Part shown: positions 15,861-40,072 of the stretch, piece by piece | Numbering within the stretch: the first letter of the stretch is position 1 | Layout of the letters: every line of letters begins with the position of its first letter | Source of the DNA: a virus | Reading direction: 5' to 3' (one strand) | IMG/VR virus record: IMGVR_UViG_3300033145_000513 | Span: 1 to 40,251 of that record | Length of the DNA stretch: 40,251 bases | Position numbers and translations under genes: made by a program | The notes under the pieces: generated by a model | Told to the model about the DNA's origin: nothing | The model's database searches: none | The model's input: only the letters and a program-made list of their open reading frames with translations

Positions 15861-16574
15861 ATGGAATTTGAATTTAAACAAAAAACATTATTTATCGACG
15901 TGGAAACAACAGGGTTGCCGCCCAGGATTGATGTCCCAGGCAAGAAGCCCGGCACAATAAGGAAAGAGCAAGTCCCTTATGAAACTGGATATATGCAATA
16001 TCCTTATATTGTTGGCATGGCATGGGCTATCGATGATGGGCCAGTTACAGAATACATCTTCAACCAAGAGGGTAGAGAGATCCCGGAAGAAGCCAGCGAC
16101 ATACATGGCATTACTACATCAATGGCTTATTTATCAGAATATACGTTTAATCAAGGGTTAATTGGAATGTTGGTTGATGTCGATGAAGTTGATATAGTTG
16201 TCGGACATGGGTTATATTTTGACATTTCAATTATTAAAGCCAACATATTGAAGGAGATAGATTTGGGGGAAGCCCGCGAAATGAAGGATCGGCTGAATAA
16301 TTTAGATTATGAGCATATGACGAATATGCTTCATAAATACAAACGCATCGATACGATGCGAAGCACTTGCAAGATGATGCGCAAGTGGCCTACGCTGGAA
16401 GAATTATACATGAAAATTTTTAGAAGATCATTTGAGGGCGCGCACACCGCGAAGGGTGATGTTATTGCTGTGCGTGAATGCTATAAATGGTTATTGCTTA
16501 AGGGAATCGTGCCTACTTTTGAAGAATTACAGCAAAAGGCAGAAGAAAAAGAGAAAGCACTTGACAAGAAATAA
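15861..16574 (+). CDS. DnaQ-like 3'-5' exonuclease (DEDDh)
   Basis: A 237-residue protein with all three exonuclease motifs: FIDVETTG (Exo I, residues 10-17), VGHGLYFDISII (Exo II), and HTAKGDVIAV (Exo III, with the DEDDh histidine). Length and lack of a polymerase domain fit a free-standing proofreading or maturation exonuclease. It sits between recombination genes and the replication initiator. The promoter for the downstream RNA overlaps its last codons (TTGACA reads Asp-Lys near the C-terminus). No phage polymerase is present, so it may edit host polymerase products or process recombination ends. Confidence 0.85.
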   Translation: MEFEFKQKTLFIDVETTGLPPRIDVPGKKPGTIRKEQVPYETGYMQYPYIVGMAWAIDDGPVTEYIFNQEGREIPEEASDIHGITTSMAYLSEYTFNQGLIGMLVDVDEVDIVVGHGLYFDISIIKANILKEIDLGEAREMKDRLNNLDYEHMTNMLHKYKRIDTMRSTCKMMRKWPTLEELYMKIFRRSFEGAHTAKGDVIAVRECYKWLLLKGIVPTFEELQQKAEEKEKALDKK

Positions 16575-16588
16575 AAAAAGAGTAAAGT
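16561..16588 (+). promoter_or_regulatory. Sigma70-type promoter for the structured RNA
   Basis: TTGACA at 16561-16566 (perfect -35) and TAAAGT at 16583-16588 (-10, four of six) are separated by 16 bases of A-rich DNA. A start six to eight bases later falls at about 16595, two bases before the first paired base of the structured RNA. Confidence 0.6.
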
Positions 16589-16594
16589 GAAATT

Positions 16595-16705
16595 ATGGTC
16601 AGAAGAATAAAAGTCAATAAAATAATAATATCACGGCGATGGTGGATTCTATCCAAGGGCGTTCCGTCCTGTTCTTCTGACCAAGAAGCCATCGTCTTGA
16701 TTTTT
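16595..16705 (+). ncRNA. Putative pseudoknotted structured RNA upstream of the initiator gene
   Basis: Direct reading shows an 11-bp perfect stem (16597-16607 with 16672-16682). In its loop, 16635-16643 pairs with 16688-16696 beyond the stem (9 pairs, two wobbles), making a pseudoknot. Two hairpins are packed between: 16644-16647 with 16651-16654, and 16656-16661 with 16665-16670 (loop UUC). Every base from 16635 to 16682 is paired or in a tiny loop. A 27-nt A/U-rich linker follows the first strand. A U-run (16701-16705) ends it. An alternative hairpin, CAAGA (16682-16686) with TCTTG (16695-16699), would compete with the pseudoknot and form a terminator. It matches no class I recognise. A 38-codon frame (ATG 16595 to TAA 16711) covers the same bases, so peptide coding is an alternative. 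Confidence 0.6.
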
Positions 16706-16716
16706 AATTAAGGTTA

Positions 16717-17409
16717 ATGATGGGTAAAGACCCAGCAATTTTATTTTATACATCTGATTTTCTTTCAGGAACATCTTTTCTCAATTATGAGGAAAAGGGG
16801 CAGTATATAACATTGTTATGCCAACAACACCAATCTTACGAAATACCCGAAAATCATATGATTAACGTATGCGGATCATTAGACTCGCCAGTGATGCAAA
16901 AGTTCACAAGGACAGGCAATGGGTTTTACTACAATGAACGTATGCGGATAGAGGGCGAAAAACGCAGAAGCTTTTGCGACTCTAGGAGTAACAACAAATC
17001 TGGTAGACCTTCTAAAAAAATCATAAGAAAATCATATGATAATCATATGGGGAATCATATGGAAAATGAAAATGAAAATGAAATTAAAGATATAAAAACA
17101 ATAAAGAGAAGTCCCAAAAAATTTAACTTTGATGAAGTTTGGGATTTATATCCCAAGGGTCACAAGATTGGGAAGGATGAGGCTAGGGGATATTTCAACT
17201 CAACCGTAAAAACACCCCAAGATCTTTATGATGTCCACAAGGCTTTGTATAATTATGTAAGAAGTGATAGGGTGTTAAGCGGCTTTGTTATGAATGGCTG
17301 CAAGTTTTTCAGCTTGTGGAAGGATTTTGTTGATTATGAGAATCCGCAGAAAGACACACTTAACGAAAAACTAAAAAAAATGGGGGTTATTGATGGAAGT
17401 AGAGTATAG
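16717..17409 (+). CDS. Replication initiator / helicase-loader-like protein (DUF1376-type N-terminus)
   Basis: A 230-residue protein. Residues about 6-40 (ILFYTSDFLSGTSFLNYEEKG) match the DUF1376-type domain of phage and prophage replication proteins. The middle is disordered and polar (residues 95-130) and encodes the iterons. The C-terminal domain (FNFDEVWDLYPKGHKIGK to FFSLWKDFVDYENP) resembles the C-terminal part of phage replisome organisers. A second ATG at 16720 has better spacing to AAGG. It lies directly behind the structured RNA. Origin repeats inside the initiator gene copy the lambda O arrangement. Confidence 0.7.
   Translation: MMGKDPAILFYTSDFLSGTSFLNYEEKGQYITLLCQQHQSYEIPENHMINVCGSLDSPVMQKFTRTGNGFYYNERMRIEGEKRRSFCDSRSNNKSGRPSKKIIRKSYDNHMGNHMENENENEIKDIKTIKRSPKKFNFDEVWDLYPKGHKIGKDEARGYFNSTVKTPQDLYDVHKALYNYVRSDRVLSGFVMNGCKFFSLWKDFVDYENPQKDTLNEKLKKMGVIDGSRV
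17019..17105 (+). other. Iterons and AT-rich tract: putative replication origin
   Basis: Four copies of AATCATAWG lie at 17019, 17030, 17041 and 17053, spaced 11, 11 and 12 bases, so all face the same side of the helix. Another exact copy is at 16852. They are followed by tandem GAAAAT units and an AT-rich stretch to about 17105, suitable for melting. Iterons plus an AT-rich unwinding zone inside the initiator gene is the lambda ori design. Confidence 0.65.
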
Positions 17410-36274: not shown

Positions 36275-36639
36275 AAAAATTTATATTAACAATCGGATTA
36301 ATAGTGTTATTAGTAGGGAATTGTTGGGGGGCGGATGGGGATATATCTCAAGTAGAGGTAAGAGAAAATGTTGCTGGATGGGCTTTAGATACGTTTAAGA
36401 TATTAAGATATACAGAAACAGCTATTATTACATATCGAAAAGTAGATGCCAACGGCGACCCAGTTGGCGAGGAGTTTGATGTTGTATTTATGAATGTAAA
36501 GGAAGATGAAAGTACCGTCGAGATAGAACTCTCAACAGAATTTTCTGATTTTTACGCATATCTACATACTAGAATACGAGATGGTGATAGTTTAAAGACT
36601 GCCATTACTAAAGCTGTAAAAATTAAATTGGGCATTTAA
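36271..36639 (+). CDS. Secretory protein with signal peptide, 122 aa
   Basis: Residues 1-20 are a signal peptide (FILTIGLIVLLVG core, CWG end). The mature part is beta-rich (TAIITYRKVDANGDPVGEEF) and ends in a helical lysine tail. The frame ends by overlapping the minus-strand lipoprotein gene by 17 bases. Likely periplasmic. No family is recognised. Confidence 0.6.
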   Translation: MKKFILTIGLIVLLVGNCWGADGDISQVEVRENVAGWALDTFKILRYTETAIITYRKVDANGDPVGEEFDVVFMNVKEDESTVEIELSTEFSDFYAYLHTRIRDGDSLKTAITKAVKIKLGI

Positions 36640-36985
36640 TATTATTTGAAGTTATTACATATTTATCAACTAGCTCTTTGGCAAAAGGATTGTCGGAACA
36701 ATATATTTTTTTTGTTAATGAAAAGAAGGAATTTTCGTCTTTATTATACTCAAAGGTAAAATAATTTAAGTTGTCGGGTTCGGCTGGATAGACTGCTAAT
36801 TCAGGGTTATCAAAAACAGAAGTTGGTTTGCGTGATGGCTCAAAAATAATATCAATTTCTTCGGGTTCAAGGTTTGTAGACGCAAATTTACCATTTTCAG
36901 ATATTTTAACATAAGGTTTTTCTTTTGGCTTTGAACAACCAATACAAACGAGTAATACAATAATGATTAAAAATAAATATTTCAT
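36623..36985 (-). CDS. Predicted lipoprotein, 120 aa (minus strand)
   Basis: The start is the internal ATG at 36985 because GGAGG lies just upstream on this strand; a longer upstream frame has no ribosome site. Residues 1-17 (LFLIIIVLLVCIGC) form a lipobox ending at Cys17, followed by a charged mature domain. It is convergent with the preceding gene and divergent from the lipoprotein gene at 37133. A role in superinfection exclusion is plausible by analogy with other phage lipoproteins, but unproven. Confidence 0.7.
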   Translation of the reverse strand: MKYLFLIIIVLLVCIGCSKPKEKPYVKISENGKFASTNLEPEEIDIIFEPSRKPTSVFDNPELAVYPAEPDNLNYFTFEYNKDENSFFSLTKKIYCSDNPFAKELVDKYVITSNNIKCPI

Positions 36986-37004
36986 AATAACCTCCAAAAT
37001 TAAC

Positions 37005-37061
37005 GGACAGCTTTCGGTGGCTAATAAAAATACGGAGTATTTTAACACCTACTAACTGTCC
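37005..37061. promoter_or_regulatory. Nested inverted repeats in a divergent region
   Basis: GGACAG (37005-37010) with CTGTCC (37056-37061), GGTG (37016-37019) with CACC (37046-37049), and AAAATAC (37027-37033) with GTATTTT (37037-37043) nest in one another. This lies in the untranslated region of the minus-strand lipoprotein and could be a leader structure or an operator. Confidence 0.5.
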
Positions 37062-38763: not shown

Positions 38764-39228
38764 TTAATCATGTTTATCAAAGGCAATATGACATTTAGTG
38801 CAAAGTCTTTTCCAGTCAGAAATTTCGCGCTTATATTTTCCGGATATATTCGCCCATTCAAATTTCTTGGCCGTGGTTGTTCCGCAATGTTCGCAAGTCC
38901 TAGGCCTTCCCATTTGCCTAATAATCCAGTCGTGCATAGCCCAATAGCCAGCCTTGTCACCTTTCCATTTATGGCTATTTTCTTCGCTATAAAGATTTCC
39001 ATAATTAAGGTAGTAGCATTTCTTGGAACAATATTTTCCGAGATTGTATTTAAGTCGGCTTGGTTTTATGAGAAATTCTCTGCCGCAATAAAGGCAGTTT
39101 CTTTTGATTTTATTCCGTTTATTAGTATAGGAACATTCTTTGGAACAAAATTTCGCCTTACCTATTTTTATTCTTTGAGGAAACGTCTTAAATTCTTTGT
39201 CACAATGTTTGCATTTTACAATAATCAT
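38764..39228 (-). CDS. HNH endonuclease (minus strand)
   Basis: Start at 39228, where a GAAGGGGG site lies upstream on this strand; the frame extends further but without a site. The 154 residues contain two zinc-knuckle repeats (CKHCDKEF with FCSKEC; CLYCGREF with YCSKKC), then the HNH core with CEHCG, FEWANISGKYKRE and LCTKCHIAFDKHD. This is the phage free-standing HNH layout, a probable homing-type endonuclease. It has its own promoter and no GATC sites, marking it as an inserted moron. Confidence 0.85.
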   Translation of the reverse strand: MIIVKCKHCDKEFKTFPQRIKIGKAKFCSKECSYTNKRNKIKRNCLYCGREFLIKPSRLKYNLGKYCSKKCYYLNYGNLYSEENSHKWKGDKAGYWAMHDWIIRQMGRPRTCEHCGTTTAKKFEWANISGKYKREISDWKRLCTKCHIAFDKHD

Positions 39229-39256
39229 TTTAACCCCCTTCAAGAAAGGAACTGTT

Positions 39257-40072
39257 ATGAAAAAGTATAAAATTATTATAGCATTATTATTGTTGGTGTC
39301 AATGGCTACATTCGCCCACTCGTACACTAGGGATTACGACGTAAACGATCCACTCGATCATACGTTAAATAGTAAATGGCCTGCGGAGATCCGCGAGGTT
39401 ATGGCAGACGTAGCCGAGAGGTTAACTTACCTATATGGATTTTCTACCGGGGAAACAGCGGTAGGTGCTAAAAAGATTCCGTTTGAAGTCCAGGCGGGGG
39501 ATCCTGGGGCGATAGCAAATCAAATACAATGCTATGCGAAAGACGCGACTGCAAAAGCAGAATTATATTGTCAGGATGAAGATGCAGACGTTATCCAAAT
39601 AACGACTGGAGGGAAGATAAACGCAGAAGCGTTAAGCGGAACGGCATTGCCGGCAATATGGCAAGACAAAGTTTATCCAGTCGGACATATTTATATATCA
39701 ACCGTATCAACGAATCCGAATACTCTTTTGGGTTTTGGAACTTGGGCAGCCTGGGGAGCCGGAAAAGTAATTGTTGGGCTTAATGGCGCAGATGCAGATT
39801 TTGACACGTCAGAAGAAACTGGGGGAGCAAAGACGGTTGATTCTTCTCACGCGCACTCTGTCCCCGTAACGGGTTGGGGCGTAACTGGGGGCGCCCTAGG
39901 TTCAGCAACAAGTGGAAGGATGCTGGCCGGTACTGGCACAACAGAATCGCCGGAAACATTAGAAAGCGTAAAAGCCGCTGGGGCGGCACAAGATTCTGAT
40001 TCTGGGGGGAGTACAACACTGGCTATCGTACAACCATATATTGTGGCTTACCTTTGGGAAAGGACTTCATAA
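39257..40072 (+). CDS. Tail collar/fibre protein with signal peptide (gp10 C-terminal-like)
   Basis: A 271-residue protein. GAAAGGA six bases before ATG 39257 fixes the start. Residues 1-22 are a signal peptide (IIIALLLLVSMATFAHS). Residues about 130-185 (YPVGHIYISTVSTNPNTLLG to GKVIVGLNGADADFD) match the conserved end of phage fibres of the T4 gp10/collar C-terminal type, ending IVQPYIVAYLWERTS. Family members lack a signal peptide. It precedes the hub gene across the circular junction. It probably binds the receptor. Confidence 0.7.
   Translation: MKKYKIIIALLLLVSMATFAHSYTRDYDVNDPLDHTLNSKWPAEIREVMADVAERLTYLYGFSTGETAVGAKKIPFEVQAGDPGAIANQIQCYAKDATAKAELYCQDEDADVIQITTGGKINAEALSGTALPAIWQDKVYPVGHIYISTVSTNPNTLLGFGTWAAWGAGKVIVGLNGADADFDTSEETGGAKTVDSSHAHSVPVTGWGVTGGALGSATSGRMLAGTGTTESPETLESVKAAGAAQDSDSGGSTTLAIVQPYIVAYLWERTS
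39275..39302 (-). promoter_or_regulatory. Perfect consensus promoter for the HNH gene (minus strand)
   Basis: Reading the minus strand, TTGACA (39302-39297) is followed after 16 bases by TATAAT (39280-39275). Both hexamers match the sigma70 consensus exactly. Transcription would start at about 39268 and run into the HNH gene. The promoter lies within the signal-peptide codons of the opposite-strand fibre gene. Confidence 0.85.

Follow-up and report, generated by a model that had tools for sequence, protein, structure and literature searches.

An apparently undescribed class of leader RNA, putatively regulatory, at the head of phage replication operons

In IncI leaders, translation of the leader peptide frees the downstream partner of a pseudoknot, which is otherwise part of a hairpin stem, and a countertranscript prevents this. 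In the pT181 attenuator, the anti-terminator occupies the 5' half of the terminator stem (PMC4878617). In P4 immunity (CI RNA with seqA/seqC), the processed RNA is located between its two targets (PMC4825925). The repZ/repA pseudoknot switch of IncI, IncB and IncL/M is the subject of Asano and Mizobuchi (1998), a work represented here by its entry in the reference list of PMC10724649. These are the closest mechanisms to that of the leader described below, which belongs to a class whose action may resemble that of any one of them.

The DNA analysed, referred to as the window, is a virus record of 40,251 bases encoding RecT/DUF3799 recombination, replication, and P22-like portal and head modules. 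The leader occupies the gap between the end of an exonuclease gene (16574) and the start of its proposed target, a replication-initiator-type gene (PHROG primosomal protein; 16717..17409, plus strand, as are all the leader features). A promoter-like TTGACA-16-TAAAGT (16561..16588; TTGACA at 16561-16566, TAAAGT at 16583-16588, spacing 16) overlaps the end of the exonuclease gene and has an expected start at about 16595-16597. This promoter was called perfect in the preliminary description of the locus; both hexamers are in place, but TAAAGT matches at only four of six positions, and promoter-like matches occur in the region at chance frequency (20 versus 19.4 expected), so that the promoter is no proof by itself. 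Where the transcript is expected to begin lies K5' (GGTCAGAAGAA, 16597..16607), the 5' strand of a long-range helix, K; its perfect complement, K3' (TTCTTCTGACC, 16672..16682), is found within the loop of a terminator-like stem, T, composed of T5' (GGCGATGGT, 16635..16643) and T3' (GCCATCGTC, 16688..16696). Helix K has 11 perfect base pairs and helix T has nine (seven Watson-Crick and two G-U), and the two are interleaved in the order K5'-T5'-K3'-T3'. Two small hairpins (16644-16654 and 16656-16670) lie in the loop of T, between T5' and K3'. Directly after T3' comes a U-rich tract, TTGATTTTT (16697..16705), the expected release site, and the initiator ATG lies 20 nt downstream of T. The 11-bp stem, the 9-bp helix, the two small hairpins, the U-run and a 38-codon frame over the same bases (16595..16711), a possible leader ORF, had all been reported and are indeed present. 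All four helices contain G-C pairs, rather than the three previously counted, and comparison with other leaders led to a reassignment of the strands: the terminator-like stem T corresponds to the 9-bp "pseudoknot", and the long-range, or kissing, helix K to the 11-bp stem. A competing CAAGA/TCTTG terminator hairpin (16682-16686/16695-16699) had also been proposed as a switch; it exists, and a terminator could plausibly take part in a switch, but this hairpin was rejected as the main terminator, because it is much weaker (-3.4 kcal/mol) and is not the conserved helix.

Like the IncI, IncB and IncL/M leaders, as far as the entry in that reference list indicates, the leader forms a pseudoknot by pairing a segment immediately ahead of the initiator gene with one farther upstream, which is a hairpin loop in one form of the class (form a). 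Unlike in IncI, it is the loop of a terminator-like hairpin, followed by a U-run, that contains the partner here, and no enrichment of a countertranscript promoter was seen for the one type scored. In pT181, too, an intrinsic terminator, putative in the leader described here, stands in the 5' leader ahead of the initiator gene, and an upstream segment pairs with the terminator region; here, K3' belongs to the loop of T rather than to its stem, such that K and T can coexist, and no antisense signal was seen with that promoter type. It is this tested defining feature, K3' in the loop of T, that sets the class apart from pT181. With P4, it shares complementary segments in the untranslated leader of a phage replication operon and premature termination, which is putative here; unlike P4, the complement lies inside the terminator loop of one compact element of about 110 nt, and action in trans is hypothetical. 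The Rfam search suggested for the locus was run with the Rfam 15 covariance models and matched no family at or above the gathering cut-off for the window or for 31 related loci, and a literature search for this architecture in open-licence papers yielded nothing specific. HDV-like, ToxI-type and other pseudoknotted RNAs were rejected, because of the wrong strand order or the absence of repeats, and have no Rfam support. The earlier statement that no class has such an order of strands is true of the libraries searched, but the order is common to dozens of viral leaders. The class is apparently an undescribed one, absent from Rfam 15, of RNAs with a putative regulatory role.

The nested fold of the window leader has a z-score of -2.97, with none of 200 shuffles as good; the summed energy of the two interleaved helices was reached by none of 67,996 dinucleotide shuffles, and helix K, given T, by none of 300. 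When a crude score was slid along the whole window on both strands, the leader ranked third, two other sites being slightly better; given these two sites and the chance-level promoter, the anatomy alone constitutes moderate evidence only. A blastn search of the leader region against phage records gave no match, and an exact-pattern search with the K5' and T5' strands of the window returned 10 stretches, all attributable to chance and none with the partner strands. No relatives of the window phage were found with the exonuclease and VRR-NUC neighbours as anchors. In the absence of a homologue of the window leader, its membership in the class rests on architecture and position; it has the complete order of parts of the second form, form b (promoter, K5', T5', K3' in the T loop, T3', U-rich tract and initiator start). 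The RNA leader of the window is real, and what decides this is the comparison with other phages.

Homologues of the initiator were taken from viral contigs and genomes, and their upstream regions were compared. A recurrent layout was found, consisting of a promoter, K5', T5', K3' in the loop of T, T3', a U-run and the start codon. In form a, a hairpin, H1, has K5' in its loop, and K is 6-8 bp long, whereas in form b, K5' lies at the start of the transcript and K is 9-12 bp long. Including that of the window, 35 leaders before replication genes were tabulated with the same order of parts, in a descriptive table, with no test, for which the strands were named by hand; a T-then-K test mis-assigned a few leaders (L229 and L232, for example), and these were re-read by hand before tabulation. 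The window leader is of form b (K 11, L1 27, L2 28, L3 5), as are the leaders of the alpha group (K 9-11, L1 17-18, L2 22-26, L3 8) and those of L232, L136, L094 and L237, which are like that of the window. A TAnnTTTG promoter was found in 19 of 27 leaders (background 0.10) and a TTGACA-type promoter before the L135, L162 and L301 leaders, and the promoters of related leaders occupy the same place as that of the window. The distance from the end of T to the start codon is 6-28 nt in nearly all leaders. Most related leaders have a U-run after T, most of them having been selected for this U-run; in L162 and L232, T has no U-run, so T may not terminate everywhere. An antisense promoter motif was present in 4 of 27 leaders (background 0.16, one promoter type scored), and an antisense (countertranscript) regulator is not supported, given this lack of enrichment. 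Leaders with ATG frames through the terminator-like hairpin include L303, L301, L162, L135, L228 and L003. The L301 and L303 leaders have an extra terminator-like hairpin between H1 and T (in L303, GGCCGATG..CATCGGCC plus TTTCTTT).

Compensatory change was assessed in two alignments. For the first, 29 distinct alpha-group leaders were found with a pattern fixing L1 and the first bases of T5', and were then aligned; in helices K and T and the small hairpin P3, 100% of the 783 cells are paired, and 14 of the 27 pairs have changed on both sides, versus 26-47% pairing in slid controls. In the second, of 14 form-a leaders, 99.5% of the cells of helices H1 and K are paired (slid controls 26-47%), and both sides have changed in 8 of the 13 pairs. 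Independent per-locus shuffles agree with the alignment result. The covariance check suggested for the window thus found pairings kept with compensation in other phages (29 + 14 leaders), no relative of the window leader itself having been found. The predicted structure is established for the viral leader class, with covariation that comes from leaders other than that of the window.

The element was found before 34 of 54 initiators with an upstream gap of at least 60 nt, versus 3 of 59 lying nearer another gene (loci examined here, with element assignments made partly by hand), and at several of the loci from which it seemed to be missing, it stands before a small ORF preceding the initiator. 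The element is tied to the head of the replication operon. One leader was found before unrelated initiator families: the same alpha leader precedes KDPA-type initiators, DUF6291, NGY..SR-type and DUF4326 proteins, and small ORFs followed by an initiator. The DUF3799 nuclease, used as an anchor, led to loci L301-L307; L301 and L303 have this nuclease in common with the window phage (59-62%) and carry H1-K-T before a DnaD-like helicase loader and a Lin1244-type initiation protein. In L159, whose initiator is the closest in sequence to that of the window (57%), a plain terminator-like hairpin, GCCCCCG/CGGGGGC (L159:1950-2000), precedes the start, with no evident K helix. Contigs carrying the relatives have been binned as Bacteroidota, Saccharibacteria and an alphaproteobacterium. 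The class is real and widespread, comprising dozens of viral leaders with quite different letters ahead of replication-start genes. One 32.8 kb contig (IMGVR_UViG_3300032050_000499) has two initiator genes (L010 and L020), each with its own leader; the K helix is GTGTCCG/CGGACAC in one and apparently GTATCCG/CGGATAC, as in L018, in the other.

Within the window initiator gene, AATCATATG occurs four times (16852, 17030, 17041 and 17053; repeat region 16852-17061), and the number of CATATG motifs in the initiator genes of the relatives examined ranges from one to seven. These repeats look like origin iterons, suggesting a putative lambda-O-like origin within the initiator gene. Downstream of the repeats lies ATGGAAAATGAAAATGAAAATGAA; HMENENENE, encoded there, is nearly invariant among relatives, which were retrieved with a search pattern favouring it. 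Elsewhere in the window, a lipoprotein-like ORF (36623-37048, minus strand), opposite to its neighbours' strand and with a strong inverted repeat adjoining, is a possible moron gene, and close to the right end of the window, likewise on the opposite strand, is an HNH-type endonuclease-like ORF with several Cys pairs (38764-39327, minus strand).

The reading we favour, with a probability of about one half, is that the leader, lying close to the promoter, acts in cis as an RNA attenuator of the phage replication operon, T being an intrinsic terminator at the start codon and K the helix that governs it. Transcription would start at K5'. As K3' would emerge ahead of T3', the 5' end of the RNA would pair first with K3', and T would then close around the K helix as a pseudoknot, or its closure would fail or be delayed. 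The K helix would thereby set the frequency of T formation, and T, lying before the initiator ATG, would limit transcription into the initiator gene and, as the CATATG repeats resemble origin iterons, also into the repeat-bearing putative origin inside it. The computed nested states of the window RNA are close in energy (-29.9 kcal/mol with K paired and -29.2 kcal/mol for the T state); in the T state, K5' is blocked and a branched terminator forms, with T extended by the pairing of AUCA (16630..16633) with UGAU (16698-16701) and followed by U's. In this attenuator, T would terminate transcription, K would oppose rather than help T, and the state adopted would be decided by leader-ORF translation, a protein or leader RNA in trans; as both helices can be present at once, however, K does not have to act against T. 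Architecture, compensatory conservation in relatives and position are established, and from these we infer the regulatory function. The preliminary description proposed an RNA controlling the initiator or replication: a structured RNA does head the initiator operon, and control itself would be its probable role.

Alternatively, though this is unlikely, the leader may provide immunity or copy control in trans: a T-terminated small RNA carrying K5' and K3' would silence the replication operon of an incoming or sister genome by pairing with its nascent leader, as the P4 CI RNA does (PMC4825925), and the diversified K alleles would set the specificity group. In favour of this, seven K alleles, each with its own matching K3', occur in a near-identical alpha leader and are not tied to the downstream gene, and K is far more variable than the unpaired L2a + L3 (mean pairwise difference 0.35-0.37 versus 0.00-0.06, L2a and L3 not being fixed by the search pattern). 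However, the small hairpin P3 varies just as much as K (0.379), so this variability may merely reflect the freedom of paired bases, and some K alleles cross-pair (8 of 9 pairs). The wider proposal, that this is an undescribed, widespread class of leader RNA whose diversifying, self-matching K alleles constitute RNA-based immunity or incompatibility groups across unrelated initiator families and host phyla, such that the truncated leader from one phage genome would silence the replication operon of another in an allele-specific manner, is likewise unlikely.

It is quite unlikely that the leader is a translational switch, in which translation of the leader ORF opens T, allowing K to form and exposing the initiator start, as in IncI-type repZ leaders. 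T adjoins the start codon, ATG frames run through T in 16 of 35 leaders (7.9 expected from shuffles, an expectation that is too low because the shuffles mix A+T-rich and G+C-rich parts), and the leader frames of L303, L162 and L165 overlap the initiator start. Conversely, 19 of the 35 leaders have no such frame, the L228/L003 frames display no third-position bias (10, 10, 11), the coding signal in relatives is weak, and K3' sits in the loop of T, outside its stem. The suggested peptide-coding check on the 38-codon frame of the window revealed no relative of the peptide in phage records; with this and the weak coding signal in relatives, a peptide function was rejected, leaving the frame as a candidate leader ORF.

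A free-standing, nuclease-resistant noncoding RNA ending at T and acting elsewhere, with the initiator expressed by read-through, would be consistent with a compact unit of about 110 nt with its own promoter and terminator, whose expected 5' end is, in form b, sequestered in helix K, but this is very unlikely given that the element always heads replication operons, with T a few nucleotides from the start codon. Finally, it is extremely unlikely that the class exists in other phages while the pairing in the window is due to chance, or reflects the coding of the 38-codon peptide: no homologue of the window leader was found, two other sites score slightly better in the crude scan and the frame spans the element, but none of the dinucleotide shuffles reached its score, it lies exactly between promoter and initiator, its geometry is near those of the alpha group, L232 and L136, and the peptide has no known relative in phage records.

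The control of initiation is a main decision point of phage replication. The element is a compact RNA module with strong covariation that stands ahead of replication initiators in phages of apparently very different bacteria and moves between unrelated initiator families. Its natural pairing alleles make it possible to test whether phages, like plasmids, control or exclude each other's replication through the pairing of leader RNAs.
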